From a virus, in IMG/VR virus record IMGVR_UViG_3300004097_001262, positions 1-25,205 of that record: a stretch of 25,205 nucleotides of DNA; one strand, given 5' to 3'. The position numbers were made by a program, and so were the translations under genes. Shown here one piece after another: positions 1,347 through 21,188 of the stretch. A model generated the notes under the pieces. The model was not told the DNA's origin, searched no databases, and saw only the letters and a program-made list of their open reading frames with translations. Within the stretch, counting starts at the first letter, position 1. Every line of letters begins with the position of its first letter.

Positions 1347-1389
1347 AATCTTCTCACTTATTATTGTAAAGGGGGCATAGAAAAGAGGA

Positions 1390-1785
1390 TTACTCCTCAA
1401 CATCTTCTTCTTCCATATCACTGGATAAATCTAACTTTAAAGAGTGTATAGTAGTTACACCCTTTCTAGTTATTCTTACTTCAAAGTCAACCATGTTAGC
1501 TCCTAGAAATCTTAGTCCTTTTAGAAATGTTTTAAATGACATAGGGTCACTACATAACTGTTTAGATAGATTGCCACGAGCAGTAGAACGGTCTTTACCA
1601 CTTGCAGGTATATTGTTAACTGGATTATCTAAAAACTTCTTCATAAGTCTATCGAACGACAACGGTCCAACATTTAAGTCAGCCGATATTTGTCGATACA
1701 ATCTACTGAGAACGTTCTTAGCTTGAGCGACACTTTGGTATCGCTCAGTTAACATCATCGTCATTCGTTTCTTGTTATTACTCAT
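1390..1785 (-). CDS. Small basic protein with acidic C-terminal tail, 131 aa
   Basis: I do not recognise a named family. The first 110 residues are basic and mostly helical in appearance (start MSNNKKRMTMMLTERYQ). A central segment, DPMSFKTFLKGLRFLG, is followed by a strand-like region, and the protein ends in a strongly acidic tail, DMEEEDVEE. A basic core with an acidic tail is common in small nucleic-acid-binding proteins, but that is inference only. The start ATG at 1785 overlaps the TGA stop of the upstream gene (ATGA), so the two are probably translationally coupled. It sits directly upstream of the alpha-CTD-like gene, and a role in the same process is possible but not shown. Confidence 0.75.
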   Translation of the reverse strand: MSNNKKRMTMMLTERYQSVAQAKNVLSRLYRQISADLNVGPLSFDRLMKKFLDNPVNNIPASGKDRSTARGNLSKQLCSDPMSFKTFLKGLRFLGANMVDFEVRITRKGVTTIHSLKLDLSSDMEEEDVEE

Positions 1786-2823: not shown

Positions 2824-3548
2824 AGTTCCATAATGCTATAATGTTTTATTCCCACCCAAGTCAAACTAAGATAGCTAAATAAAGTTAACGATGCCGCATC
2901 AAAAGGACAATAGTCTTTAAATGCGGTTACGTCTACTTTATGCCCTTTACGGTCAATGACGTCAGGCGTACTATCTTTATTAGCTAAAATTTTAGGTACA
3001 TATAACTCTACCGATGGCATTGGTTCTTTAATCAATAACTCATGATGAACGTTCATCCATTCATCAAAATTATACATCCATAGTATCTTCCATCGAGCAG
3101 TTATAGAAGCTGTAGTCATATGAAGAGTAGGAATATAAATACACTTTATACTAACATGAGTTCCTATTCTAGCGGCCAGCGCTAACAATAGAATATCCTT
3201 TTCAGCCACAGATAGTTTATACGGATATAGGTTAACGTCTAAATGTACTAAATCTGCAGTAGGGTTATCTATAGACTCTACATTTACACGGTCGATGACG
3301 TTCTTAATAAACGTTATCATATTGGACATATACGAAAACTTTAAAGTCTCTACGTCCCTGTCTTTAAATGCAGCTATATACTCGTCAGATTTTAGGGTGG
3401 TGGACAGAGTAGATAAATCATCATGTTTTCGATTATTATAATCGTTACCTAATATCTCATCTACATAACCGTCTCCGAGCTTCGCAACTGTACCAATACG
3501 AGTATCTAATAGGGTATCAAGGTCGGTATAGAATGTTTGATTACTCAT
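2820..3548 (-). CDS. Hypothetical phage protein, 242 aa
   Basis: Unrecognised 242-residue soluble protein. The N-terminal segment, FYTDLDTLLDTRIGTVAKL, has the D-L-x-T-L-x-D-T-R-x-[AG]-T pattern that I associate with an uncharacterised jumbo-phage protein family; this is recollection, not a search. Start ATG 3548 has GGGG about 10 bases upstream, just 3 bases after the stop of the preceding gene. It is the last gene of the long minus-strand array starting at 9508. It converges on the 2389 gene with overlapping stops and no visible terminator between them. Confidence 0.75.
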   Translation of the reverse strand: MSNQTFYTDLDTLLDTRIGTVAKLGDGYVDEILGNDYNNRKHDDLSTLSTTLKSDEYIAAFKDRDVETLKFSYMSNMITFIKNVIDRVNVESIDNPTADLVHLDVNLYPYKLSVAEKDILLLALAARIGTHVSIKCIYIPTLHMTTASITARWKILWMYNFDEWMNVHHELLIKEPMPSVELYVPKILANKDSTPDVIDRKGHKVDVTAFKDYCPFDAASLTLFSYLSLTWVGIKHYSIMEL

Positions 3549-4024: not shown

Positions 4025-4696
4025 CTAAACTAATGCGTTTTGTAAATGCATACCCTTTAATAGAGTAGACAGTGTTTCGGTTGATTTTACAGTACTACCT
4101 AAAGTAGCTATATCGTCTAGAGATGCTCTACCAGTGTCAATGATATCTTTGTTCATTTTATTGAAGGCCACTTCGTCGCCGCCCCGAGTTTTAATTAACT
4201 CCTCAATAACCCTATCCATACCTAAACCGAATAGTAGTTGCGTTTCTGGAAACGATAAAGAGCTACCTTTACTAGGACCAGTAGGCTGGTTAGTAAGTTC
4301 ATCTCTATGGTTGTTATTATCAGGTAGACTAATTTTCTTAGTTAGTAATTGAGACTGACGTTTTAAAGGTAGGGTTACTACCATGTACTTTAATGGCGTC
4401 AAATATTCTTTACCAGTTGCAGGGTCCGTTAACCATAACTGCTCATAAAACTCATGACCTAATTTTCTGGCCAGTTTTATATTACGAGTAGTGTCTAACT
4501 TACTCTTATTCATATTAGGAATGATTAGAGGGAGTATAGTAGTACCCTCTTCTAATTGTCGCATCAGTAAGTCAAATTCGCGGTCAGACATACCTTTAAA
4601 CATATCTTCATATAACTTACCATTTTCACTACTAGGTACAATCTGACTTATCTGCTCAATGATAAATTTTTGTGCTGCCTTTCTGTTACCCGCCAT
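4025..4696 (-). CDS. Possible RNA polymerase beta-subunit C-terminal fragment
   Basis: The product has 223 residues. Two blocks resemble the extreme C-terminus of bacterial RNAP beta. Residues 91-111, TDPATGKEYLTPLKYMVVTL and onward, mirror [23 protein letters not shown]. Residues 135-157 (TNQPTGPSKGSSLSFPETQL and onward) mirror [21 protein letters not shown]. A final segment, TLSTLLKGMHL, resembles the FNVLLKEIRSL of beta. phiKZ-like phages are known to carry beta and beta' as split polypeptides, which makes such a fragment plausible. The catalytic lysine region of beta is absent, so this would be only the clamp-side tail and needs a partner encoded elsewhere. It could instead be an unrelated conserved jumbo-phage protein. 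ATG 4696 has ACGGAG about 7 bases upstream. It is cotranscribed with membrane-protein genes upstream. Confidence 0.5.
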   Translation of the reverse strand: MAGNRKAAQKFIIEQISQIVPSSENGKLYEDMFKGMSDREFDLLMRQLEEGTTILPLIIPNMNKSKLDTTRNIKLARKLGHEFYEQLWLTDPATGKEYLTPLKYMVVTLPLKRQSQLLTKKISLPDNNNHRDELTNQPTGPSKGSSLSFPETQLLFGLGMDRVIEELIKTRGGDEVAFNKMNKDIIDTGRASLDDIATLGSTVKSTETLSTLLKGMHLQNALV

Positions 4697-8104: not shown

Positions 8105-9508
8105 CTAGACGGTAACTGTTAACTTCTTCATCCAGTAAGGATGGTAGGTTCCAGCACGCATATTTAATAAATCCATAGTGCTAAGGAAGTTTAATGGATG
8201 CTGTTGTTCCTTAAACGTCCAATAGCCGCGTGTATTAAGTAATACGTCCCAATCATAGCCTTTAGCTTTAAGGTCTTCAAATAGTTCTTTAGGCGTACAC
8301 AATAGCCCTTCTGGTAAATTCTTCCACAGTGTAGTAATCTGACACAGTTCAGAAGTTATTTCAATAGCACGTTGTAGTAGCTGGTCGTTGGCAATTTTAT
8401 TACGAATGGTAGTTCTATTTAAAACAACGTCAGGACGAAGTTCCATACAGAAGTTCTGGTCATTACCACCTAAACCAAACTTACGTTCTTTACAGTAGTT
8501 ATATTCAGTTAAACCAACTAACATACCTTCGGATTGCGAAACGATAATGTTAAAGGGTAATCCAGATACACCTGACTTAGAACGTAGTGCTTGTACAGTT
8601 ACCTGTTGTAAATCAGTATCACCTACTTGACGGTCATTCTTACCACGTGGCCATAATGGAGTTTTATCTGTTTTGTTTTGCTTAACCGTTGCACCAGAAC
8701 ACTGATATAGTACGTTAGTTAAAAAGGAAAAGTTCTTAGGTACACGTTTGAAAATAGTTTTCTGTTTCATGAACCCTAAACGTTTCTGTGGAGGAGCGTA
8801 TGGGTCTAGTTGAATCTCATCATCTAGATGGGCAGTCATTATCATAAATAAACTATTACGAGATGTAATGCCGGGTAACTCAGCTATCATTTGAGACTTC
8901 GCAGCAGAGGCTTTCATAGCTTCCATGTTACGGCCAGACTCACCGATTTCATTTTTCTCTATCATGCCATCTACCGCGTCGATAGGCATTTGCGACATCG
9001 AATCTATTTCAGCCAAGGTAGGTTTAGGCATTTTAATAACTTCACCCTTAGTATTAATGAATGGTGTAGTAACCTGTAAGTCCTTCTTATTAGCCATTTT
9101 AGTTTTCAAGAACGACTTAAGGGCTTCGAACCATTTATTACCAGACATTACGGTATCGGTAATATGTACCACACCCTCTTCATCTAAGTCACGGTCAGTA
9201 AGATATAGAAACGATTTAGATATCTGTTCCATACGTGCAGGAGTCAGAGAGTTCTCTGTGTCGTATATTAACCCAAGTTCAACGAAGTATCGATTAATAA
9301 TAGAAAGGGTAAAGAAATGCGATACAGTGGACTTGTACGTATTACCTCTACCACACACACCGATAATATGTGAGTAGCCTGCGGATAAAATAGATTCCCC
9401 GTGTTCACCAGTATAATAGGTGCCAGTTGGAATGTCAAAGAGACAACCTACGTTCATGGTAGGTCGAAGCTTAGCTACTTTAGTAAAGAAATCATTAGGG
9501 TTAGTCAT
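8105..9508 (-). CDS. UvsX/RecA-like recombinase ATPase
   Basis: The 467-residue protein has a RecA core. The Walker A is GRGNTYKS (53-60), with Tyr where RecA has Gly before the Lys, as in T4 UvsX (GPSKSFKS). DTENSLTP (83-90) matches the DAEHALDP motif of RecA with its catalytic Glu (E85). EIDSMSQM (167-174) matches the Walker B VDSVAAL, and SLFMIMTAHLDDE (219-231) matches the strand leading to loop L1. It is longer than RecA (about 350) and UvsX (about 390), with extra sequence after the core. It probably forms filaments on ssDNA for strand exchange and recombination-dependent replication; an alternative is a RecA-fold ATPase with another role. ATG 9508 begins the long minus-strand array. 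Its leader contains AATAATGAGAGG. Confidence 0.82.
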   Translation of the reverse strand: MTNPNDFFTKVAKLRPTMNVGCLFDIPTGTYYTGEHGESILSAGYSHIIGVCGRGNTYKSTVSHFFTLSIINRYFVELGLIYDTENSLTPARMEQISKSFLYLTDRDLDEEGVVHITDTVMSGNKWFEALKSFLKTKMANKKDLQVTTPFINTKGEVIKMPKPTLAEIDSMSQMPIDAVDGMIEKNEIGESGRNMEAMKASAAKSQMIAELPGITSRNSLFMIMTAHLDDEIQLDPYAPPQKRLGFMKQKTIFKRVPKNFSFLTNVLYQCSGATVKQNKTDKTPLWPRGKNDRQVGDTDLQQVTVQALRSKSGVSGLPFNIIVSQSEGMLVGLTEYNYCKERKFGLGGNDQNFCMELRPDVVLNRTTIRNKIANDQLLQRAIEITSELCQITTLWKNLPEGLLCTPKELFEDLKAKGYDWDVLLNTRGYWTFKEQQHPLNFLSTMDLLNMRAGTYHPYWMKKLTVTV

Positions 9509-9610
9509 TAGGACTGGCCTCTCATTATTTAAGAATAGGTTATTATTACAAAAGATTTATCTATTCTGTTTAATTTTATGTCTATAAACACAATTCTTGG
9601 AGTAAACCTT

Positions 9611-10438
9611 ATGTCACTATTTATAACGCCTGCGTGGAATCACACCTTAGCTTTAATTAGCGTAGAGGCTGTATCTACACAAACAACAAATTCACCGGGC
9701 GATATAAGTCGTCTACCACTTTTCATTTCACGCTTCCTTTCAGATATAGAAAAGATATTTGATAAAAATACTTACGTCGCTGATAAAACGGCTATGATTA
9801 CTAAGTTCGATAAAGTACTTAGAGACAACAAATATGTATCTCTAACAGGTATAGAGATGTTTAGACCTACTGGTCTACAAGTACCATATATCGAATATGT
9901 GAAGGTATTAGAGTTGTGGCATCGAGAATTAATTGATGTAGAAGAACGTTTATTAGCGCCATTAAGTAAGTGGGTAGCGTCTATGTTAGGTGACCCTAGT
10001 AAATTAAAACATCTTACTAGTATAGATAAGTTTGATTTAATTGACGAAGTTGCTTTAGTGACCGCCATGCGTGGAACTGTTGCCGAAAAGGACCGTGGTA
10101 CTTCAACGTCTTACGGACAATTAATTCAACGTAATAGTGATTGGAATATAGTGACCGCTACTGTTAATGAAATGTATAAAGAATATTTAGCTAGTACTCC
10201 AGCTAATATACATAAAACTATCACCGGCATTTCGGAGAACATCAATTTATTACTCACTCGCATTAATGAAAATCCATCGACCTATACAGTATCTGGTAGT
10301 GTAGTTAATACGCTAGCTAAAGTATTACATCGCATTGGTAGAGAAGTGGAGTTATATGGCGTACACGGATATAACTTAAAGGTCATGGTAAATAACTTAG
10401 ACCAAAACCATACTCGTTTAAACGAAATTCTAAAGTAG
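9611..10438 (+). CDS. Possible virion structural protein, 275 aa
   Basis: I do not recognise a domain. The protein is 275 residues, soluble and mostly helical, without a signal peptide. A single plus-strand gene between a recombinase operon and an RNase H operon recalls the gene order of phiKZ-like phages, where a virion protein lies between the UvsX-like and RNase H genes; this is from memory and weak. The frame is open from ATG 9578, but that codon has no ribosome-binding site, while ATG 9611 has GGAG 8 bases upstream, so I chose 9611. The 5' leader 9541-9610 probably carries the promoter. It is followed by a strong palindromic terminator. Confidence 0.7.
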   Translation: MSLFITPAWNHTLALISVEAVSTQTTNSPGDISRLPLFISRFLSDIEKIFDKNTYVADKTAMITKFDKVLRDNKYVSLTGIEMFRPTGLQVPYIEYVKVLELWHRELIDVEERLLAPLSKWVASMLGDPSKLKHLTSIDKFDLIDEVALVTAMRGTVAEKDRGTSTSYGQLIQRNSDWNIVTATVNEMYKEYLASTPANIHKTITGISENINLLLTRINENPSTYTVSGSVVNTLAKVLHRIGREVELYGVHGYNLKVMVNNLDQNHTRLNEILK

Positions 10439-10443
10439 TAACG

Positions 10444-10486
10444 GCATAAAGAAAGAGAGTAGTTCCTAGGAACTACTCTCCTATGC
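10444..10486. terminator. Bidirectional palindromic terminator (GCATA-flanked)
   Basis: A perfect 26-bp palindrome at 10455-10480 (half-site GAGAGTAGTTCCT) lies between the converging stops at 10438 and 10490. It is flanked by GCATA (10444-10448) and TATGC (10482-10486), which extend the inverted repeat outward. On the minus strand the stem is followed by TTTCTTTATGCC. The same layout recurs at 15342-15379 and 19933-19971. Confidence 0.8.
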
Positions 10487-10489
10487 GGA

Positions 10490-10900
10490 CTAACCCATAG
10501 CTTGAACTGTAGTGAGTCTCAGCATCGATTGTATTAACTTAAAGACCAACATGATATCATTGGTCTGGTCGGTAATATTATCGTACTGTAACCAAAACGG
10601 CGTCGCTGCTAATATAGTATCTAAGGTCAGTTGGTTGTGAACCACTGCGTTTCTATCAATATCACCTAAAGCGGTGTCTCCCCAAATCTTATTAGTAAAT
10701 AAGGCGGGTAAATCGAAACTTCCTACATTAGGCGTTAAACCGTCCACCTTTTCGTGTAACTGAGCGTAGTTGTATTTAGTATGACATCGGTCTGCTAAAT
10801 GCGTGTACAGCGTAGTTATGAAAAAGAGCCGTCTTAACTTCGTTGGTGTAATGGCGCGTATAAACGAATTCTTAACGGGTAGGGTTTTGACGAGTAACAT
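10490..10900 (-). CDS. Hypothetical phage protein, 136 aa
   Basis: Unrecognised 136-residue protein with a basic N-terminus (KLRRLFFITTLYTHLADRCH) and a helical C-terminus, IMLVFKLIQSMLRLTTV. These hydrophobic stretches are amphipathic rather than clear membrane helices. It is the last gene of the minus-strand operon that includes RNase H, starts 19 bases after its stop, and ends at a palindromic terminator. ATG 10900 is preceded by AAGGAG at about 9 bases. Confidence 0.7.
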   Translation of the reverse strand: MLLVKTLPVKNSFIRAITPTKLRRLFFITTLYTHLADRCHTKYNYAQLHEKVDGLTPNVGSFDLPALFTNKIWGDTALGDIDRNAVVHNQLTLDTILAATPFWLQYDNITDQTNDIMLVFKLIQSMLRLTTVQAMG

Positions 10901-10919
10901 AAAGATACTCCTTGGTTGA

Positions 10920-12341
10920 TTAAATGACTCGTAGATTAGAGTGTGCTGCTGCCCATATACCTATACCCCCATCACATTTGATGATAGACGCGCATCTAAA
11001 ACCATGCTTAGATTCGGGCCAAGTCATAACAAATACTTTAGGGTTAAGTTTAGAAATACCGGACAAAGCATTTCTAGTAGGTAAATCTACGCCTAGTGTC
11101 ATGCAGATAGAAATGTCCTTTTCTATTCCATCAGCACTATACTTTATAGGTACGTCGATTGATTTAGTACTAACTGATATCGCTTTATTAAAAGTCGTTT
11201 TAGCATTGACTTTAATAGGCGTATCATATAATAGCTCAGTCACGTCGGTGACTACATACCCATCACCTAGGTTGTCGTGTCTAAATTCATTTAACTGAAT
11301 CTCCAATAACGCTAAAGTATCTATTAAGTTAAATACTAACCGAGGAGGCTTACATTCAATAGTTAACGGTAACTCATCTACATTTTCTATATCACGTGTA
11401 TTACCAGTACCGCCCAATTCTCCTCTACTTTTAGGTCTAGGTTTTAGGTGTAGAAATGCGTTATCTTTAACATCGTTAAATACCCTACCGTTAAAGATAT
11501 TATCTAGACGTCCAATGAAGATACTAGTTTCTTTATTAGCAACCAATATATTCTGATAAGTTCTAATTGATTCTAATACAGGTTCAGGTTCATCTAGAAT
11601 AACTACAGAATGTATAGTGTCGGAAATCTTCTTACCTATCAATTCATCCAACTTACCATGACTACCGCAATGATATACGTATTTACCATCTTCGGTTAAA
11701 ATGGAGGCATCCGGGTGAGATGCAAAATACCATCTAGGTGCGGATAGTAGTTTATGATACGGAGGTGTTTTAAACGTATTATGTTTATTAACAGGGGATT
11801 CTAAAAGAAAGCGTGTATGCTCTCCCTTCTGTCCACCTATAATACCCATAGAAGCTCCACGGTCAGCAAATTCATTACCTTTATTACCAGAGTGACCCTT
11901 TACCCATTCCCATTTAACTTTGCCTTCATAGTCGTTTACAGTAGATATGAGTTCTTGCCAATAACTTTTATTCCTTACAGGTTCCCCATCACGTTTCACC
12001 CAGCCACGTTTAATCCAACCCGGTACATATTTAGTAAAACTATCTAATACATACTTACTATCAGTTTTAATAGTAACCACTTCTACATTTTTAGCTGCAG
12101 CTAATTTAACCCCTTCCGTGGCAGCCACTAGCTCAGCAACGTTATTGGTGGCAATGTGCTCGTCACTACCCTCAGCCTTTAGTATAATACTGCCCCAACT
12201 ATCGTAAACAGTACCGCCTATATTACCGTGGATTCCCCAGCCTCCAATACCGGGATTTGGTTTAGCACCACCATCCGAAAATATCGTAGCCTCTTTTACG
12301 GATTTAACTTTATCTTTTTCTTCTACTTTTTTATCTGACAT
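10920..12341 (-). CDS. rnhA: RNase HI fused to a large uncharacterised domain
   Basis: The product has 473 residues, against about 155 for ordinary RNase HI. Residues about 15-168 are a full type-1 RNase H: FSDGGAKPNPGIGGWG with catalytic D23, NNVAELVAATEG with E70, IKTDSKYVLD with D94, and VKGHSGNKGNEFADRGA with H150 and D160. It should cleave RNA in RNA:DNA hybrids, for example primers or R-loops, using Mg2+. The remaining 300 residues contain no motif I recognise; a Cys/His-containing YVYHCGSHGK lies near 220-235. ATG 12341 follows TGGGGCAAACC. A promoter-like TATAAT and a palindrome lie just upstream, after a terminator, so this is probably the first gene of a two-gene operon. The gene name applies only to the N-terminal domain. 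Confidence 0.9.
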   Translation of the reverse strand: MSDKKVEEKDKVKSVKEATIFSDGGAKPNPGIGGWGIHGNIGGTVYDSWGSIILKAEGSDEHIATNNVAELVAATEGVKLAAAKNVEVVTIKTDSKYVLDSFTKYVPGWIKRGWVKRDGEPVRNKSYWQELISTVNDYEGKVKWEWVKGHSGNKGNEFADRGASMGIIGGQKGEHTRFLLESPVNKHNTFKTPPYHKLLSAPRWYFASHPDASILTEDGKYVYHCGSHGKLDELIGKKISDTIHSVVILDEPEPVLESIRTYQNILVANKETSIFIGRLDNIFNGRVFNDVKDNAFLHLKPRPKSRGELGGTGNTRDIENVDELPLTIECKPPRLVFNLIDTLALLEIQLNEFRHDNLGDGYVVTDVTELLYDTPIKVNAKTTFNKAISVSTKSIDVPIKYSADGIEKDISICMTLGVDLPTRNALSGISKLNPKVFVMTWPESKHGFRCASIIKCDGGIGIWAAAHSNLRVI

Positions 12342-12373
12342 GGTTTGCCCCAGAGATTAAATTATTACAATAC

Positions 12374-12400
12374 ATTATACTACTCTGTAATCTGTTACAG
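12374..12400 (-). promoter_or_regulatory. Candidate promoter with operator-like palindrome for the RNase H gene
   Basis: On the minus strand a TATAAT hexamer (12379-12374) lies 33 bases upstream of ATG 12341. Five bases upstream of it is an inverted repeat, CTGTAATCTGTTACAG (12385-12400), with 6-bp arms and a 4-base centre. The arms occupy the -35/spacer zone, so they could be an activator or repressor site; no TTGACA-like -35 is present. It sits between the upstream operon's terminator and the RNase H start. Confidence 0.45.
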
Positions 12401-12406
12401 ACTACG

Positions 12407-12433
12407 GCATAAAGGGCGTCCGGTGGGACGCCC
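12407..12433 (-). terminator. Terminator after the spanin-like pair
   Basis: GGGCGTCC (12414-12421) and GGACGCCC (12426-12433) form an 8-bp G+C-rich stem with a 4-base loop. On the minus strand the stem is followed by TTTATGCCG, the same tail seen after the other hairpins in this window instead of a long U run. It lies 11 bases past the stop at 12444 and separates this operon from the RNase H operon. Confidence 0.75.
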
Positions 12434-12443
12434 GTATATTATA

Positions 12444-12947
12444 CTATTCACATAGTTTATTGTATTCACGTATACTTTCTTCAAATAGTTTAGTAATAAC
12501 GTCGGTATGTCGTTTTAACGCACTATTGTATCGTAACTGTAAATTCCATAACTCTGATTTAGTTACATGTTCAGGTATGGTAGGTTTTACTGGAAACGGA
12601 GGTAGGGTAGGTATTATGAATTCACCAGCATCACAGCTAGTCGTCTCTATATCAAACCTGTCTTCTAAGTATACTGTAAGGTCATCTATATAAACTGATA
12701 TATAACTGTTATAGTGTCGAAGGTCATTCATATATGGAATTAACGTACTGGTATATGTAGTCTCTCCATCAAAACCTATATAATCATTTTTATTCGGAGG
12801 AGGTAATAACTCTCCCGGTACTTCCGTCCTTATGAACTCGAATACCGGTCTAGGAATAGGCTCCTTATGGTCTACTGGTGGAGATGGTGCTGGTACTGCA
12901 GTACAGCCTAGCAGTGTCATAGCCGACACAAACAATAACTTTTTCAC
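12444..12947 (-). CDS. Lipoprotein, probable outer-membrane spanin subunit
   Basis: The 167-residue product starts MKKLLFVSAMTLLGC, a short type II signal peptide with an LLGC lipobox, so Cys15 would be lipidated after cleavage. The mature N-terminus is proline-rich (AVPAPSPP, EPIPRP, LPPPNKN), as in Rz1-type o-spanins. The rest is soluble with a helical C-terminus. It follows a coiled-coil membrane protein after 3 bases, the order expected of an i-spanin/o-spanin pair that fuses inner and outer membranes at lysis. It is longer than typical o-spanins, so another lipoprotein role, such as superinfection exclusion, remains possible. The GTG start at 12947 has GAGG 10 bases upstream. No endolysin lies next to it. 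Confidence 0.75.
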   Translation of the reverse strand: MKKLLFVSAMTLLGCTAVPAPSPPVDHKEPIPRPVFEFIRTEVPGELLPPPNKNDYIGFDGETTYTSTLIPYMNDLRHYNSYISVYIDDLTVYLEDRFDIETTSCDAGEFIIPTLPPFPVKPTIPEHVTKSELWNLQLRYNSALKRHTDVITKLFEESIREYNKLCE

Positions 12948-12950
12948 AAG

Positions 12951-13406
12951 TCATATACCTCTATAGTCTTTTAACATCTTAGCCATTTCCTCATCAGCCT
13001 GTACTACGGGTGGTTTGACTACCGTTTTTTTCAAAGCAGCGGCTAACTGTAGTTTAGTCGAGGCTAAAGCGCCTTTCAATTCACGCAATTCATAATTCAA
13101 CGTATCGTGGAGTTTTTCATATTCCTTAATCTCCGCGACATACGCATCATTAAGTTTTTGTATTCTATCAAAACGCTTAACGCGTTCAGCTAATAACGCC
13201 TTCTCAGTAGCTAAGGCTATGTTAGCTTTAGCGCGAACTTGCATCTCGGTATAGATGTCCGCTCCCACATAAACCGTTCCCACCCAAACTACTACTATCA
13301 ATGACAATAGGGTGGTGTTTTTACTTTTAGACTTCCCTTTGTTATCGAACATAGTTATAAGGAAGGGAAGGAATTGTGGCAAAGCTCTTAAAAAAGAGAC
13401 TAACAT
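12951..13406 (-). CDS. Coiled-coil membrane protein, probable inner-membrane spanin subunit
   Basis: The product has 151 residues. A hydrophobic N-terminus (MLVSFLRALPQFLPFLITMF) is followed by a basic KGKSKSK loop and a clear membrane helix (about 32-52, LLSLIVVVWVGTVYVGADIY). Residues about 55-135 are charged and helical, with heptad-like Leu/Ile spacing, consistent with a periplasmic coiled coil. This is the i-spanin (Rz) design with an added N-terminal segment. The next gene is a proline-rich lipoprotein, supporting a spanin pair. The frame is open to 13433, but ATG 13406 has GGAGG 6 bases upstream and is chosen. Inference only; other membrane-anchored coiled-coil roles are possible. Confidence 0.75.
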   Translation of the reverse strand: MLVSFLRALPQFLPFLITMFDNKGKSKSKNTTLLSLIVVVWVGTVYVGADIYTEMQVRAKANIALATEKALLAERVKRFDRIQKLNDAYVAEIKEYEKLHDTLNYELRELKGALASTKLQLAAALKKTVVKPPVVQADEEMAKMLKDYRGI

Positions 13407-13453
13407 TATGTACCTCCATTTTAATTTAAACACAGATATAGGGGTTTAAAGCG

Positions 13454-14767
13454 ATGATTACCATAAAGGGTTTCGTTACTATAAACAGTAAAGTAAACAA
13501 TATAGAAAATAGCGTTTCTCCTATTGGAGAATTATCACCCAAGAGTAATAGTTACAGTATGGATAGAGGTGATTTTACGCACGTAGACTACCCTTCAGTA
13601 CGACTAACTACATTCTCTACCTTAGATGAAACGGGTAAGGAAACAACATTATCACAAGACTTTTTTAACCATGCTTTAAAAATTGCTAGCTGGATTAATT
13701 CTATATCTACCACGGGTGAAATAACCTCAGATGTACAATCGCTAGTAACTGCAATTAGAACATCAGTCCATAATATTGCTGACGCTTTAGAGGTTGACGA
13801 AATAGTTGTTGATAATGGTACGTATATGCCTACCTACATTCAGTGGGTTTTCAATGGCGTGACATTTAAACTATGGTTCACTAACGACGCATTTGAAGCG
13901 CAGTATGACGAGTCTGAATTTAAAGTTATTGCACCTATGGCAACGCTAAATGATTTCCATAGACCATACTCGGAAGTATTCCATTTAGTAGACAGTAGTG
14001 TAACGGTCATGTTACCTCGTGTCAACGATATTTCCGAAGAGTCACCGTATACCAAACTACAGTCGGTTGATGTGGAATGGGTAGACGTAGCCACTGCAAT
14101 GAAATCTACTACTACATGGTTAGTGGCAATTTATGGCGAGGCTGGTAATAATCCAGATTCAATTAGAAATGCCCTAGTAGATTATATCTTAGAAAACAGC
14201 GACTTTACAGAAGCTGAATGGTATAATGTTTTCCCGCTATTGTTTAGACCTACCGAATTTGTTATTGTACCCGCATGGCATCGCTACAGTATGCCTGACG
14301 TAAGTGGAACTGCTGGAAATTATTCTCCTACTATTCCATATCGCGATATGTTGCCCATGATAACACAACCCACTATTAACTACGACGCTGAACATCGTTT
14401 AGAAAACATGACATGTACTACTGCGGTTTATAAATCATTAGGTTTAGTATCTGTTGGTAACATAGGTAATGCTGATGGTATATTTAGTTTAGATGAGAAA
14501 TTTAAAGATTATCTAATTCGTGAATCGGATGCCGTAGACTATAATGAAATAAATCCAGTTACACAAAACTGGATGTACTTACTTCACCGTATGTTAATTA
14601 TAGCAGAAACCATGGATGTCTATACGCCGTTGGAATCTGGCTTTAGTAGACTACGACGTAATGACGTAACCTTCTTAGTATCCAAATATTTAGATGTAAA
14701 TTATCTGGTGGTTACCAAAGAAAGTTTTAAGGATTATTTCAATGAAGATACTGACACCGTCTCTTAA
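13454..14767 (+). CDS. Probable virion structural protein, 437 aa
   Basis: The 437-residue acidic, soluble protein has no signal peptide or membrane segment. Many Thr, Ser, Asp and aromatic residues and a mixed strand/helix look suggest a structural or baseplate protein, but no domain is recognised. AGGGG lies about 10 bases upstream of ATG 13454, in a 47-base divergent gap that must also serve the spanin-like genes. Its end overlaps the next gene by 26 bases, so the two products are probably made together. Location among spike and fibre genes is the main reason for the virion suggestion. Confidence 0.65.
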   Translation: MITIKGFVTINSKVNNIENSVSPIGELSPKSNSYSMDRGDFTHVDYPSVRLTTFSTLDETGKETTLSQDFFNHALKIASWINSISTTGEITSDVQSLVTAIRTSVHNIADALEVDEIVVDNGTYMPTYIQWVFNGVTFKLWFTNDAFEAQYDESEFKVIAPMATLNDFHRPYSEVFHLVDSSVTVMLPRVNDISEESPYTKLQSVDVEWVDVATAMKSTTTWLVAIYGEAGNNPDSIRNALVDYILENSDFTEAEWYNVFPLLFRPTEFVIVPAWHRYSMPDVSGTAGNYSPTIPYRDMLPMITQPTINYDAEHRLENMTCTTAVYKSLGLVSVGNIGNADGIFSLDEKFKDYLIRESDAVDYNEINPVTQNWMYLLHRMLIIAETMDVYTPLESGFSRLRRNDVTFLVSKYLDVNYLVVTKESFKDYFNEDTDTVS

Positions 14768-15347
14768 TACAGCAGGGGCCTTTAAATTGAAGGCTCCGTG
14801 GGATACTATTCCTAATACCGAATATGTGTGCACGGCCATTGCTACCATTCCAAGTTTACTGGAACAGGAAGTGGATGTATTGAAAACTATTTATAAGCCA
14901 ATGACTTTAACAGAGGCTGATTATTTAGAGGACGTATCTAATAACGTACCTATCTTAACCCTAACTTCTGCAACGGCACCTACGATTAAAGTACCAAGTA
15001 GTTATTTGTTAGAGTATCCTGATATCAGTATAATTCCATATAGTCATATAGTCCTATCCGTATCGTTAGGCGCTATCGCCGATAGTACTAATTTGGAGCA
15101 TGTTAAAGATGTCATAGGTGTAGAAGTTGAATCTACGTTCGGTATTACTCCTAACGTGTTAGTTCATCGTGCACCTAGTACAGGGACCATTACACCAGAA
15201 CAACATGCCAATATAGAAACTAATAGACTGGCAGCGGTAACTACCACCACCACTGACCGAGCTAGAGTACTTGAATTAACTGATATTGTAACTGAGCAAC
15301 GCACGTATATTAAGTTATTAGAAGACGCTATTATAAATAACGCATAA
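14742..15347 (+). CDS. Possible virion-associated protein, 201 aa
   Basis: The 201-residue protein is unrecognised. The first two-thirds look beta-rich, and a C-terminal helix of about 45 residues (RARVLELTDIVTEQRTYIKL) could be a coiled coil. ATG 14742 lies inside the end of the upstream frame, with AAGGA 8 bases upstream, so the 26-base overlap looks real and points to translational coupling. The stop codon TAA is part of the GCATAA arm of the following terminator. Confidence 0.7.
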   Translation: MKILTPSLNTAGAFKLKAPWDTIPNTEYVCTAIATIPSLLEQEVDVLKTIYKPMTLTEADYLEDVSNNVPILTLTSATAPTIKVPSSYLLEYPDISIIPYSHIVLSVSLGAIADSTNLEHVKDVIGVEVESTFGITPNVLVHRAPSTGTITPEQHANIETNRLAAVTTTTTDRARVLELTDIVTEQRTYIKLLEDAIINNA

Positions 15348-15379
15348 GAAAGAGGAGTCCTAGGACTCCTCATTTATGC
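15342..15379. terminator. Bidirectional palindromic terminator (GCATAA/TTATGC-flanked)
   Basis: A perfect 20-bp palindrome, GAGGAGTCCT and its complement (15352-15371), lies between converging stops at 15347 and 15385. Outer arms GCATAA (15342-15347) and TTATGC (15374-15379) are fully complementary, and the left arm contains the TAA stop of the upstream gene. The hairpin is followed by ATTTATGCC on the plus strand and TTTCTTATGC on the minus strand. Confidence 0.8.
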
Positions 15380-15384
15380 CGATT

Positions 15385-15801
15385 TTAGTGTCCGTAGTTG
15401 AATCCGAACCAGAACATATTTCCAGTTATGGCATTGATACCTAATTTATCTATAGATGCACAACAACCATCGTCTACTGCAGCAGAATAGTTAGGACTCC
15501 AACACTCTTTACTTTCAGTACGTTCCAGTCTAAAGTTGTCTACGCACCCATCGTTAACCCCTTGATATAGTTTACCCAATTGATTACATAGCCAGTAGTA
15601 GTCGTTTAAGTTATCTACAATCGGTTCGACGTATGTTCCATATATCTTACTATTAAACGTTTGTCTAGTAATATCAAGTTTCTTTGGAGGTTCTTCTAAC
15701 TTAACTATTTTAACATTAACTTCTTTAGTGCCATCAGGTGTCTCTATATCAAAAGACTTAATACCCATTACACGGGCAACGGGCTGTTCACTGTGTTCCA
15801 T
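15385..15801 (-). CDS. Hypothetical phage protein, 138 aa
   Basis: Unrecognised 138-residue protein with Cys-containing segments in the C-terminal half (DGCVDNF, KECWSPN, DDGCCAS) and an aromatic C-terminus, GNMFWFGFNYGH. The start is ATG 15801 with GGAG 8 bases upstream; a TTG codon at 15813 would extend it by four residues but places the ribosome-binding site inside the gene. It is cotranscribed with the spike-like gene upstream, 17 bases away, and may assist its assembly or be a small baseplate part. Confidence 0.7.
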   Translation of the reverse strand: MEHSEQPVARVMGIKSFDIETPDGTKEVNVKIVKLEEPPKKLDITRQTFNSKIYGTYVEPIVDNLNDYYWLCNQLGKLYQGVNDGCVDNFRLERTESKECWSPNYSAAVDDGCCASIDKLGINAITGNMFWFGFNYGH

Positions 15802-15818
15802 AATTTTCTCCAACTTAT

Positions 15819-16622
15819 TTAAATAGGCGCACCAGAGCGACTACCCGCATGTGCATTTCCTGTAGTGATGGTATCTCCAGTAAACGTTACTAGTGGTACG
15901 TCAAAAAGTATTGCGACGCCTGCTTTGAAAGTCATCATGTTAGCAACTGTATACGTTAGACTGTCAGGTGCAAATGCCGTTAAGTTCATTTTATCTAACT
16001 TAGTCCAAGTACCATCGTGGTTATGGCACTCTATCACGGTATCTTTAGAATTTAACTGTATGTAATTATCTTTATCATCGGTGATGGTGACGTGTGAATT
16101 CTTAGCATCTACTTGGATGGTGTATAAGAAATCTTCTTTATCGTTCTTAGACGTCTTTAAAGTAATGTGTTTTTTATGAGTACTAACTTCTAGTGTATAA
16201 CAGTTATCTATATTTAACTCTATATCCTTACCATTATCAGACTCATCACTCCACGCATATATTACAGTTTCCAATCGACGAAGGTTATCGTTACGTCCCA
16301 TAGAAGTCCAGTAATATTTGTCAGTGTCGCCATATTGATAAATTAGTACCTGTTCACCGCGACGAACATCAGGAGACGTTATGCGGTTAGTAGATAGAGA
16401 AAACCATTCCGCAGTGATAGTCTGGTCAATAGATACTTTAACCTGATACTCTTTACCTAAATGGTCTAACCCTTTTGAATAAAGGTCTTCAGGTTTATAT
16501 TCTATCTCACCGTCCATCATAGGTACGAACTCGATAGGCGTAACTTCTATTTCATTAGAAGACATTTCTTTATTGATAGCAACTCTACCAATTGAATATA
16601 TACGTAACTTACTCTGGTCCAC
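15819..16622 (-). CDS. Baseplate spike-like protein (gp5/gpV-type)
   Basis: The product has about 267 residues. An N-terminal region (LRIYSIGRVAI and onward) leads to DVRRGEQVLIYQYGDTDKYYW, the kind of strand-rich segment found in the OB domain of phage central-spike proteins. Then come repeated beta strands with alternating charged and hydrophobic residues (ITLKTSKND, VTITDDKDNYIQLNS, TVIECHNHD), as in an intertwined beta-helix. It ends in TFTGDTITTGNAHAGSRSGAPI, resembling spike C-termini. It likely forms the trimeric membrane-piercing tip of the baseplate. I chose GTG 16622, which has AAGGA 7 bases upstream; GTG 16649 would add nine residues but lacks such a site. A lysozyme domain like that of T4 gp5 is absent. 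Confidence 0.65.
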   Translation of the reverse strand: MDQSKLRIYSIGRVAINKEMSSNEIEVTPIEFVPMMDGEIEYKPEDLYSKGLDHLGKEYQVKVSIDQTITAEWFSLSTNRITSPDVRRGEQVLIYQYGDTDKYYWTSMGRNDNLRRLETVIYAWSDESDNGKDIELNIDNCYTLEVSTHKKHITLKTSKNDKEDFLYTIQVDAKNSHVTITDDKDNYIQLNSKDTVIECHNHDGTWTKLDKMNLTAFAPDSLTYTVANMMTFKAGVAILFDVPLVTFTGDTITTGNAHAGSRSGAPI

Positions 16623-16735
16623 AGTAAAATCCTTACTTTTAGTTATCACTATAACATAAATTAACTAATGTATAAGTTTAGTGATAAATTACATCCCTGA
16701 GTAATAATCTGAGATAAACTAAAGGATGGCCATAG

Positions 16736-19231
16736 ATGAGAATTTTAAGTCTACATTTAACGAACTATAAACGATTTCTATTAACAGGTATTAAAGAGAT
16801 TACTCTAGATACAGAATCGTTACTACAACTAATACTTGGTACCAATGGTTCAGGTAAATCGTCTCTACTAGCAGAGGCTACTCCGTTACCAGCAAACGGA
16901 AATGACTACGAGTCAGGTGGAATTAAAATAATCGTACTAGAACACAGAGGTTCAACTTACACATTACGTTCGGATATAGCTCGACTATCTAAACACAGCT
17001 TTATTAAGGATGATGGGGAGAATCTAAATCCGGGTGGAACTAGTACAGTACAGCGAGAGTTGATTGTACAAGAATTAGGCTTCACTGTACAACTACAAGA
17101 TTTATTAACGGGTAAGACTACATTCTGTAGTATGTCTCCTGCAAAACGACGGGAATGGATTACTAGCCTTAGTTCGGTAGACTTAACTTACGCTACTGGA
17201 GTATTCCAGTCTATGAGAAGTTCTGTACGTGACGTACAAGGAGCCATGCGGTTAAATAAGGAACGTTTAGTACGTGAGTCTAGTAAGTTATTAGATTTAG
17301 AAAAGATAACAGAATTACAGACTAGGGCGACTCGATTAAACGAAGATTTAGTTATACTAACTGAAAACAAAGAACACAATATCCCGTCGGTTACAGAAAT
17401 AGAAAATCGTATCAGAAGCGACTCTAAAGAATTAATTGATATAACTACCAGATTGTTGACTACTGCCACGACCTATTCTCCAGACATTGCTATAAAAAAC
17501 TTTGATGATTTAGAGGACGCTATTAACGTACTATTCGGCGATGAACATAGATATCGTGCATTGATAGAGTCTAACAGTGATGAGTTACTAAACATCAATA
17601 ATGTAATATCATCTATGATTGAATCGGGTGCAATGGATTTAGAGGGACTACATAAACGCATAGGTACTCTTTATGAACAACGTGCTACCTGTGATAGTAG
17701 TTCAGAACAGTTTACCTTTAACGGCGATTTAGATATTACGTTGGCAGACACCGATAGTGTGTGGGAGACTTTAAATAACCTAGTGTTATCCATTCCACTA
17801 AACGTCCGACCTGACTTTGATAATGAAAGGTACAACTCCGCTAAAGGTAACATAGTTGCAGGCGATACGTTCTTAAATAAAATAAATAACGTTATTACTA
17901 AAGTACAAAATAGAATTGAACTAATTAACTCTAGCATAGATAGTGAGTGTCCTAGTTGTAAGTATGTATGGAAACCGGGCGTAAGTGATAACGAACTTCG
18001 TAACCTTCAAGCCTCTTTAGATGAACACTTATCTAAGAAGGACGAGATGGTTACAAAACTTAAGGTCGAGAAGGAGATAGTCGAACAGTTCGATGTTTAT
18101 ACCGGCTACCTGAGACGTTTCCGTTCTATAGTTGAATCATATCCGCGTTTAGATGCACTGTGGAATGAAGTAATTAAACAGAAGTACTTAGATACGACTC
18201 CTACTATAATTATGGAAACGCATTCATTGTGGAAACGTGCAGTATTGAATGCTAAGTGTTTAGCTGAGTTAGACCAAGAGATTAAAGAGGTAGAACAATC
18301 TATTAATCATTTGGGTAGTTTAGAAACTACTGATGTCAGCGGTTTCCAGTCTAGAAAGATTGAGTTAGAAAATATCATAGAAGATAATACCCTATCATTA
18401 GAACGTACCGTTTCGTCATTAAAGTATTTAAAAGTATACAAAAATAACATGCGTAACTATGTGGACGTGGTTGACAGATGTTCTATACTCACTACTAACA
18501 TTGAGAGGCAACGAGACCTACTTATAAGGGCATATCGTCAAGAGATGATAGAAGTTACTATCAACAAGACGCAAAGCTCACTAGCGGTCTTACAGACATC
18601 CTTAAATGAAAAGGATACACTGGCGGGAATAGTTAACGATTTGAAGTATTCGGTAACTACACTAGAAACTGACTTTGAGGCATGGTCTATACTTGGCGAC
18701 ATACTTTCACCATCTAACGGTATTATTGCTGAACAGATGATTGGGTTTATCGATTGTATGACTAGTCAGATGAATGATGTTATTGAAAAGATATGGGAAT
18801 ATGATTTACAGATACTTTCATGTAGTAATGATGCGGGGGAGTTAGACTATAAGTTTCCTCTGTTAGTTAAGAATAAGAATAATGTAGTAAAGGATATATC
18901 TAATGGCAGTACTGCTCAACAGGATATAGTTAATTTTGCATTTACCATGATGGTAATGTTTTATAAAGACTTACAAGACTATCCATTGTACCTAGATGAG
19001 ACTGGCGCATCTTTTGATACGGCACATCGTTTTAACTTGATGAGATATGTAAAACATTTATTAGACACCAATCAATGTAGTCAGATATATCTAGTTAACC
19101 ATTACAGCTCAGAAATAGGCGGTATATCAAACGCAGACGTATGTGTTTTAGACCCTACGAATATAACCGTGCCTAGTGCATATAACCAACACGTAACAAT
19201 TATATACGGGATAGGAAATGGAAACAAATAA
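16736..19231 (+). CDS. SbcC/Rad50/gp46-like ATPase subunit of a recombination nuclease
   Basis: The product has 831 residues. Walker A is GTNGSGKS (35-42). The ABC signature lies at SNGSTAQQDIVN (from 722), Walker B with D-loop at YLDETGASFD (D754, E755), and the H-loop at VNHYSS (H789). In the middle, two long charged helical coiled-coil arms flank a zinc-hook CPSC (405-408), the site where Rad50-type dimers join. It is shorter than E. coli SbcC (about 1,050) but near phage gp46-like versions. It should bind a Mre11/SbcD-like nuclease to process DNA ends, but no such nuclease gene is visible nearby. ATG 16736 follows AAAGGATGGCCATAG. Phage role by analogy to T4 gp46: recombination-dependent replication and end resection. 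Confidence 0.9.
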   Translation: MRILSLHLTNYKRFLLTGIKEITLDTESLLQLILGTNGSGKSSLLAEATPLPANGNDYESGGIKIIVLEHRGSTYTLRSDIARLSKHSFIKDDGENLNPGGTSTVQRELIVQELGFTVQLQDLLTGKTTFCSMSPAKRREWITSLSSVDLTYATGVFQSMRSSVRDVQGAMRLNKERLVRESSKLLDLEKITELQTRATRLNEDLVILTENKEHNIPSVTEIENRIRSDSKELIDITTRLLTTATTYSPDIAIKNFDDLEDAINVLFGDEHRYRALIESNSDELLNINNVISSMIESGAMDLEGLHKRIGTLYEQRATCDSSSEQFTFNGDLDITLADTDSVWETLNNLVLSIPLNVRPDFDNERYNSAKGNIVAGDTFLNKINNVITKVQNRIELINSSIDSECPSCKYVWKPGVSDNELRNLQASLDEHLSKKDEMVTKLKVEKEIVEQFDVYTGYLRRFRSIVESYPRLDALWNEVIKQKYLDTTPTIIMETHSLWKRAVLNAKCLAELDQEIKEVEQSINHLGSLETTDVSGFQSRKIELENIIEDNTLSLERTVSSLKYLKVYKNNMRNYVDVVDRCSILTTNIERQRDLLIRAYRQEMIEVTINKTQSSLAVLQTSLNEKDTLAGIVNDLKYSVTTLETDFEAWSILGDILSPSNGIIAEQMIGFIDCMTSQMNDVIEKIWEYDLQILSCSNDAGELDYKFPLLVKNKNNVVKDISNGSTAQQDIVNFAFTMMVMFYKDLQDYPLYLDETGASFDTAHRFNLMRYVKHLLDTNQCSQIYLVNHYSSEIGGISNADVCVLDPTNITVPSAYNQHVTIIYGIGNGNK

Positions 19232-19928
19232 ATGTACACCAACTTCAAATACTAGTCAAGTAACTGCTACTAATTTATCGATAACCTCCAGTTCAATAGA
19301 TAATCGTTGTAATAGAACCAACTCTAATATAGTTAAGTTGCGCGAACGTCCCGACTCTATGTCGAGATATAAAGTGTTAGTAGGTATCTCAGGTACTAGT
19401 CAAATAACCGGTGACTTACAAAATGAGATTATTAATATTAACTATGATTTCAATGTAACCGATACGCTAACGCCTAAAATGGGGAACTTATTGACATTGG
19501 TACTGTATGAGTTATTAGGATATAATCTAACTAACCTTGAATTAAACGTACGCATAGCTACACGCGGTCAGTCTATAGATACTAACGTAACTCCAGAATA
19601 TTATCTAACAAAGAGTACTCAGTTTGTAGGTATAGAAATTAGTCAAGCGGTAAATACGTATCTATCTATTAACCACTCATTTGATAGTATAGAAAATGTT
19701 AGATTACGTAGACAAGGAATTAGACCATTAGAACTTCTAGCTCCCATGCGTGACGATATCTTAGTGGCACTTTACTACGCCGTAAGAATTTTAGATAACA
19801 TGACCGACCTTCCCAATGTAGGAGATTATGGTAGGGACGGTTACCTCCCTTTAGAATCCGGGAGAGTTGGAACTGACCAACTATTAACTCGTATAGATGA
19901 AATAATGACTAGTAATCATACATTATAA
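19218..19928 (+). CDS. Hypothetical protein overlapping the SbcC-like gene, 236 aa
   Basis: Unrecognised 236-residue protein. The first 45 residues are low-complexity, rich in Thr, Ser and Asn; then KVLVGISGTSQI begins a mixed alpha/beta region, ending in helices. None of the phosphoesterase motifs of SbcD/Mre11 (D-x-H, GD-x-x-D, GNHD) are present, so it is not the expected nuclease partner. The start overlaps the upstream gene by 14 bases, with GGGATAGGA just before ATG 19218, pointing to coupled translation. Being next to virion-type genes, it could equally be structural. Confidence 0.7.
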   Translation: METNKCTPTSNTSQVTATNLSITSSSIDNRCNRTNSNIVKLRERPDSMSRYKVLVGISGTSQITGDLQNEIININYDFNVTDTLTPKMGNLLTLVLYELLGYNLTNLELNVRIATRGQSIDTNVTPEYYLTKSTQFVGIEISQAVNTYLSINHSFDSIENVRLRRQGIRPLELLAPMRDDILVALYYAVRILDNMTDLPNVGDYGRDGYLPLESGRVGTDQLLTRIDEIMTSNHTL

Positions 19929-19932
19929 CCGA

Positions 19933-19971
19933 CATAAGAAAGAGAGCATTCTAAGAATGCTCTCTTTTATG
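19933..19971. terminator. Bidirectional palindromic terminator (CATAA/TTATG-flanked)
   Basis: Arms AGAGAGCATTCT (19941-19952) and AGAATGCTCTCT (19954-19965) form a 12-bp perfect stem with one central base, between converging stops at 19928 and 19974. CATAA (19933-19937) and TTATG (19967-19971) continue the inverted repeat outside. On the plus strand it is followed by TTTTATGCCC and on the minus strand by TTTCTTATG. Confidence 0.8.
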
Positions 19972-19973
19972 CC

Positions 19974-21188
19974 CTAAAGGACATATATGGTTTTCAGGTA
20001 AACGATGTCAGGGGAATAGGGGTTTAATGTAGATACCGTTTCGTCTACCCGTACCATACTATCTGGATCGCCTACCGTATCTATATTCCAGTTACGGGGT
20101 TCAGGGGCAGTGGTAGTTATTACTACTTTCTCATCATCAGTAAACCAACTATATTCAGCTAGTGTTCCATCATGTCGTAATACTAGACCCGTCGGTGTAG
20201 TATCACTAATATACTTTCCCTGTAACTTAGCGCTCTCTAATATACAGGTATCTACACATATATCGACCGCATCAACTAACACGATAAAGCTATGTTTATT
20301 TTCAGCTAACCCCCTAATACTTTCATCACTAGCAATAACGGATGGTAATAGCGCCACACTACTCCCTCCAGTCATTGGTATTTCAGAATAATCTAAGAGT
20401 TCTCTAGCCACTAATGCGCGTTGGGCTAATGGATAATCTTTTATGTTAACGGATAACGTATCGTCGTTAAGTTGACTATATGCATCGTCCAAAACATGTA
20501 GTATACCGCCCAATACTAATAACGGAGTTTTATCACTAAAACTAACGTTAGTTTTGATATACATTCTTTCACGTACATTATAGTTACTAGACAAAATCAT
20601 ATCGTCTGTAATAGGTATTATTTCCAACTTACCTAAAGCGCGAAAATCTAACATACCTAAGTTGGTGTCGTTAACTATAAGAGAGTTGCGATTACCGTCT
20701 AATAGATATAATCCATGTTCGCGTACAACTGCAGGATGGATAAAGCCGTTAACGGTAAATAGAAAACTCTCACCTAAAGTAGCATAGTCGACCCCTTCTT
20801 TAGTTAGAATTAGGTCAGTGCATTTCTCTCTAGATAATTTGACGTCAGGATGATGGGTTATGTTTGTATGATTTACAGCATAACCTGCATTCAAAACGTT
20901 ATAGTATTTTACAGTTTTAATGTTATCCAAAGAACTAACTTCGATGGCAGTCGGTAGAGTTATATTACCGATGGAAGTTAACCAGTCGGATATGGTTAGT
21001 TGGAGATGTGCGGTTTGCACTTTGACGTCACTTAATAGTAATTCCATAGTACCCGTAATAGCAGGGTTAGATAATTCTATTCTAAGTTCGTCGTATAGGG
21101 AATGTAGTTGAGATAGGGTTATAGTGGAGGTATCTACTTCCTCCCAAGCCTGTTCTCTTCTACCTAGAGCTTTTACTAGAACGTACAT
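19974..21188 (-). CDS. Probable virion structural protein, 404 aa
   Basis: A 404-residue, acidic, beta-rich protein with no signal peptide or membrane segment. The start MYVLVKALGRREQAWEEV is followed by helices, then long strand-rich sequence with many Thr, Val and Asp residues. I recognise no domain. It is flanked by a recombination gene pair and the tail-fibre locus, and its composition resembles baseplate or tail proteins, so a virion role is inferred. It is a single-gene minus-strand unit, divergent from the fibre locus over a 95-base A/T-rich gap and ended by a palindromic terminator. ATG 21188 follows GAGGATAAATATA. Confidence 0.65.
   Translation of the reverse strand: MYVLVKALGRREQAWEEVDTSTITLSQLHSLYDELRIELSNPAITGTMELLLSDVKVQTAHLQLTISDWLTSIGNITLPTAIEVSSLDNIKTVKYYNVLNAGYAVNHTNITHHPDVKLSREKCTDLILTKEGVDYATLGESFLFTVNGFIHPAVVREHGLYLLDGNRNSLIVNDTNLGMLDFRALGKLEIIPITDDMILSSNYNVRERMYIKTNVSFSDKTPLLVLGGILHVLDDAYSQLNDDTLSVNIKDYPLAQRALVARELLDYSEIPMTGGSSVALLPSVIASDESIRGLAENKHSFIVLVDAVDICVDTCILESAKLQGKYISDTTPTGLVLRHDGTLAEYSWFTDDEKVVITTTAPEPRNWNIDTVGDPDSMVRVDETVSTLNPYSPDIVYLKTIYVL

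Follow-up and report, generated by a model that had tools for sequence, protein, structure and literature searches.

Four hairpins in a stretch of viral DNA, IMG/VR record IMGVR_UViG_3300004097_001262 (positions 1 to 25,205; this whole stretch of 25,205 nucleotides (nt) is called the window below), lie close to gene ends between positions 10,444 and 19,971 and carry the flanking words GCATAA or TTATGC, which raises the question of what these elements are and what reads their flanks. A sequence-only reading had taken them for transcription terminators that have a conserved exit in place of a long U run and are recognised by a phage-encoded polymerase or factor. Based on the present analysis, the elements are probably hairpin-dependent terminators that serve a multisubunit RNA polymerase (RNAP) encoded by the phage itself, and in which a sequence-specific exit, stem-(T)TTATG-Y-Y-G (Y, pyrimidine), replaces the U-tract. 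The acting enzyme would most likely be the non-virion RNAP (nvRNAP), which transcribes the late genes.

A hairpin was counted as strong if it had 8 or more perfect pairs, 4 or more G+C and a loop between 3 and 6 nt long. Only four hairpins in the window are of this kind, and they are the four named by the sequence-only reading, with fold energies of -17 to -20 kcal/mol and z values of -4.3 to -7.2:

10444-10486, putative two-way terminator A: stem 10455-10480 (11 bp, 4-nt loop); TATG at 10482-10485 on the plus exit and 10448-10445 on the minus exit; between gene 9578-10438 (+, resembling phiKZ gp153) and the convergent gene 10490-10900 (-, in the position of phiKZ gp154)
15342-15379, putative two-way terminator B: stem 15352-15371 (8 bp, 4-nt loop); TATG at 15375-15378 on the plus exit and 15346-15343 on the minus exit; between convergent genes 14742-15347 (+) and 15385-15813 (-)
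19933-19971, putative two-way terminator C: stem 19939-19967 (13 bp, 3-nt loop); TATG at 19968-19971 on the plus exit and 19936-19933 on the minus exit; between convergent genes 19218-19928 (+) and 19974-21188 (-)
12407-12433, minus strand, putative one-way terminator D: stem 12414-12433 (8 bp, 4-nt loop); behind minus-strand gene 12444-12947; sole exit TTTATGCCG on the minus strand, TATG at 12411-12408

All four sites have a stable GC-rich hairpin next to a stop codon. The window has three convergent junctions without gene overlap, and the two-sided form is found at all of them; both exits point into antisense DNA there, and the two-way placement that had been proposed for these three is borne out by the gene positions and the exits. 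TATG starts at most 6 nt from the stem on seven of the eight exits (binomial p ~6e-10, based on a TATG background in the window of 0.0052 per base). Four of these seven are exactly TATGYYG (TATGCCG three times, TATGTCG once), which by chance would be expected in about 1 in 16, and the remaining three are TATGCGG, TATGCGT and TATGCCC, the invariant core being TATG(C/T). Runs of 5 T are absent from all exits of the four hairpins; 5 T in 7 were found on 2 of the 8 exits, and there are just short stretches of 2-4 T.

As GCATAA and TTATGC are the same word on opposite strands, the frame is one exit motif read both ways: an exit on both sides of a hairpin at a convergent junction gives a two-way terminator and, with it, the CATAA...TTATG frame. 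The frame as originally written is thus just a local form of TTATGYYG. The exact pair stands on both sides only at 15342-15379, since the hairpin at 10444 leaves rightwards as CTATGCG and the left side of that at 19933 is ACATAAG; moreover, the frame is two-way at three hairpins, while 12407-12433 is one-sided, on the minus strand only. The stems, described as unrelated, do vary in sequence, but three of the hairpins have the left flank CATAA(A)GAAAGAG in common. This word of 12-13 bases lies at 10444-10455, 15342-15352 and 19933-19943, and none was found at the hairpins of the closest contig (G001, locus L116).

The exit was counted in other phage genomes. Every perfect hairpin with 7 or more pairs was collected, and exits with TATG were compared with shuffled exits:

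phiKZ: 82 TATG exits versus 12.4 shuffled
201phi2-1: 61 versus 10.8
Noxifer: 84 versus 9.2
LucasX: 108 versus 11.4
Desertfox: 58 versus 6.2
G001 (closest relative): 46 versus 4.7
FLC8: 30 versus 8.2
Goslar: 10 versus 5.2
pVa-21: 12 versus 4.3

The controls T4 (5 versus 3.8) and AR9 (4 versus 3.8) showed no TATG enrichment at hairpin exits. Few exits of the enriched genomes have a run of 5 T, 0-5 per genome (phiKZ 5, 201phi2-1 1, Desertfox 0). The stems of Goslar are interrupted and therefore missed by the perfect-hairpin count. When imperfect hairpins were included (RNAfold), TATG was the top of 12 letter permutations in all nine phiKZ-like genomes but pVa-21; in T4 TATG also came first, but at only 1.2% and tied with ATTG. 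In pVa-21 T-runs dominate in this count (TTTT at 182 of 1594 sites), and the exit is thus not universal among phiKZ-like phages. The terminators of pVa-21 (KY499642, loci L020-L031) are plain T-run terminators, yet GCATAAG flanks are present at a few of its hairpins. A count of the CATAA-gap-TTATG pattern against its reversed form was discarded as a poor test, the reversed matches equalling the forward ones in several genomes, and hairpin-anchored counts were used in its place.

The consensus of 264 distinct exits in 80 viral contigs is TTATG-[CT]-[CT]-G-T-T, with T in 60% before TATG and, after it, C/T in 88%, C/T in 90%, G in 64%, T in 59% and T in 50%. In 80% of these exits TATG lies 1-3 nt past the stem, most commonly 2. 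The YYG is kept at one-sided terminators too (14 of 27 in phiKZ and 15 of 23 in Desertfox, versus about 1 in 16 expected), and as the opposite flank there lacks the motif, YYG does not merely result from the two flanks pairing as a lower stem. In LucasX, 61 of the 143 TATGYYG words in the genome stand directly past a perfect hairpin. Stem sequences differ between sites. In phiKZ, each of the 19 convergent junctions has a hairpin that is flanked by TATG on one side at least and mostly on both, for example CAGCATAAGCCCTCCC-loop-GGGAGGGCATTATGTCT. The same junction could not be compared across the named genomes, because gene neighbours are rearranged; this is also the case between the window and G001, where the new junction (gp165-like versus 14742-like gene) again has the frame.

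Transcription of phiKZ is independent of the host RNAP and resistant to rifampicin, and its nvRNAP initiates late transcription at TATG, of which all four bases are needed and the G is +1 (PMC4666361). In the open-promoter structure the beta-like subunit GP123 holds the non-template-strand TATG in a pocket (PMC12809450). Seen in the direction of transcription, the terminator exit offers the same TATG on that same strand, which suggests that the same recognition site may serve both start and stop. The exit is absent from T4, which uses the host RNAP, and from AR9, the nvRNAP of which has a different promoter motif. The claimed tie to a phage polymerase therefore holds in part: the exit is kept in phiKZ-like phages with their own polymerases and contains the late-promoter element of the nvRNAP, whereas pVa-21 has mostly T-runs.

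From these observations we infer the following course of termination. The hairpin would fold while the polymerase moves into the exit, and the enzyme would be held there by the non-template TATG in the pocket of the beta-like subunit and/or by a Y-1/G+1 pause at YYG, after which the hairpin would extract the RNA. The 3' end is predicted to fall on TATGYY, ahead of the G and about 7-8 nt from the stem. It is a tentative proposal that a single pocket is used in both initiation and termination: the late-promoter TATG pocket of the nvRNAP would re-bind the non-template TATG during elongation, and a hairpin 1-3 nt upstream would convert this promoter-like pause into termination. Among nine GP123 homologues, S144, F151, an aromatic residue or histidine at 185, H331, an aromatic residue at 406 and Q466 are kept except in pVa-21, the pocket of which differs at 158, 185 (L), 334 and 466 (E) and has W at 406. 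These differences in a phage with T-runs would agree, weakly, with a shared pocket, and pVa-21 offers a natural comparison for the tie to the polymerase.

In phiKZ the exits are often TTATT rather than TTATG. At 0-12 kb and 199-265 kb of the genome (NC_004629; loci L006, L009, L010) they are mostly TTTATTTCG or TTTTATTTT; TTATT-type and TTATG exits number 19 versus 5 there and 6 versus 25 elsewhere (Fisher p 1.1e-5, post hoc). At the hairpins of the TTATT region the opposite exit often keeps TATG, though no gene reads that way for kilobases. A direct test did not support the idea that TTATT exits mark early units, transcribed by the virion RNAP (vRNAP): no link was found to the early-promoter word TATATTAC within 3 kb (p 0.36 in phiKZ, 1.0 in 201phi2-1), and such a mark is therefore not claimed.

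Several points weigh against a specific exit read through the TATG pocket. The many TTATT exits of phiKZ imply that the G is not needed everywhere. The correlation with the pocket residues is weak, both because pVa-21 has the most divergent sequence and because FLC8 keeps the main pocket residues, yet its perfect-hairpin exits are just moderately enriched in TATG. With TATG in the pocket in the initiation register, only about 5 nt would separate the stem from the 3' end, less than hairpin-driven release usually has, and the pocket model must therefore assume added forward movement (scrunching). In addition, YYG is absent from the known late promoter.

Other explanations of these elements were weighed. 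They could be ordinary intrinsic terminators, for which a hairpin and a short T-rich tail suffice and TATGYYG is a common quirk without specific recognition. Two to four T's do usually stand before TATG or overlap it, and the phiKZ-like phage pVa-21 has plain T-runs. We consider this explanation unlikely, however: 5-T runs are almost absent, A, G and YYG are conserved over genomes of 37-55% GC, and neutral drift would not keep a 7-nt word among phages the proteins of which are mostly 25-40% identical. The exit may also be an elemental pause site of the nvRNAP (G-11/G-10 from the stem, Y-1, G+1), with the likeness to the promoter TATG incidental. At the commonest offset of 2 the last G's of the stem lie at -10 to -12 and Y-1/G+1 lies 8 nt past the stem, and YYG is conserved independently of TATG, for example in the TTTATTTCG exits of phiKZ. 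On the other hand, the best-preserved part of the exit is TATG itself. The bacterial consensus pause is T-3 G-2 Y-1 G+1, and the exit does not match it at -3/-2, although this consensus is bacterial and may not be that of the nvRNAP. We regard a pause site as possible but doubtful.

The exits might further be late promoters placed behind hairpins instead of terminators, TATG being the late-promoter motif required for initiation (PMC4666361). This is highly improbable, as at convergent junctions both exits aim into the antisense of the facing gene. Furthermore, the sequence upstream of phiKZ gp119 is TATGTAGACAG, without YYG and with no such hairpin in view, and the sequence downstream of the phiKZ late promoter is reported to be unconserved (PMC4666361). 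There remains the view that the elements have nothing to do with a phage polymerase and are either host-polymerase terminators or a DNA element (a recombination cassette, a repeat or a protein-binding dyad). Some mobile regulatory cassettes and some repeats of other genomes are indeed hairpins with conserved flanks. Here, however, the stems differ between sites and the units are thus not copies, one-sided forms break the dyad, T4, which depends on the host RNAP, is without the exit, and phiKZ transcription is rifampicin-resistant (PMC4666361); we give this view very little weight.

Profile searches and gene order identify the window as part of the genome of a phiKZ-like (Chimalliviridae-type) jumbo phage. 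The core genes in the window include those for a vRNAP beta fragment and for UvsX-like, SbcC-like and RNase H proteins, in an order near that of phiKZ gp147-gp165. The following were assigned by profile search, and a weaker hairpin is added to the list:

4025-4696, minus strand: vRNAP beta-subunit fragment (like phiKZ gp149), among the phiKZ-like marker genes
8105-9508: UvsX-like gene
10920-12341: RNase H
13454-14767: virion protein like gp157
15819-16649: baseplate protein like gp164
16736-19231: SbcC-like gene, like gp165
1374-1398, minus strand: weak fifth terminator candidate, 5-bp stem 1385-1398, at the end of minus-strand gene 1390-1785; minus exit TTTTCTATGCC / TTTTCTATGCCCCC; energy -6 to -7 kcal/mol, z about -3

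The window has no near DNA relative in the phage collection, against which megablast of the region gave no match, and its proteins are 30-53% identical to their nearest protein relatives there. The RNase H protein alone as query retrieved no relatives, which were instead found with an alignment of 11 gp157 homologues. The gp157 homologue of G001 is 41% identical to that of the window and its gp123 homologue 35% identical to that of phiKZ; the window's own gp123 region lies outside the 25 kb fragment. Rfam at gathering scores gave no match. The stop codons at 10438, 15347, 19928 and 1390 overlap terminator elements or sit at most about 6 nt from them, and the frame may thus also constrain the surroundings of stop codons. 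Plus-strand gene 2389-2823 is followed after 114 nt by TTTATGCCC at 2937-2945 (+); this copy falls within the facing gene, has no clear hairpin and is probably a chance occurrence.

The elements seem to be intrinsic-type terminators with a polymerase-specific exit. The literature search, which did not reach the 2014 transcriptome paper, gave no description of the exit, although a TTAT element at phiKZ terminators may have been mentioned before. Termination at such sites is not a subject of the reviews and structure papers covered, and termination by the split multisubunit polymerases of nucleus-forming phages seems undescribed in the literature searched. A hairpin-coupled exit with a promoter element is directly testable on the already purified enzyme. 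Standard terminator finders may miss such sites, which the non-U exit would explain, and transcription units in phiKZ-like genomes can be marked from sequence alone. Two-way terminators could contain antisense transcription, and they may help to explain why TATG sites are abundant and not all promoters.

A GC-rich hairpin immediately behind genes, often two-way where these converge, and an expected 3' end some 7-9 nt beyond the stem are features that the elements share with bacterial Rho-independent terminators; unlike these, they have a conserved TTATGYYG where the U-tract would be. Terminators of pVa-21 and AR9, which have related multisubunit RNAPs, are likewise hairpins behind genes but end in plain T-runs, TATG being unenriched in AR9 and weakly enriched in pVa-21. 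Unlike the phiKZ late promoter (PMC4666361, PMC12809450), the exit comes after a hairpin, is followed by YYG and points into antisense at convergent junctions. Other RNAPs, too, have sequence-specific signals for pausing or termination, among them sigma-dependent promoter-like pauses, which reuse a promoter element, and T7 class II sites; in these a specific DNA word, not U-richness, stops the enzyme. The phiKZ-type exit would resemble these in that a specific DNA word stops the enzyme, and it differs from them in being coupled to a hairpin and placed at junctions genome-wide.

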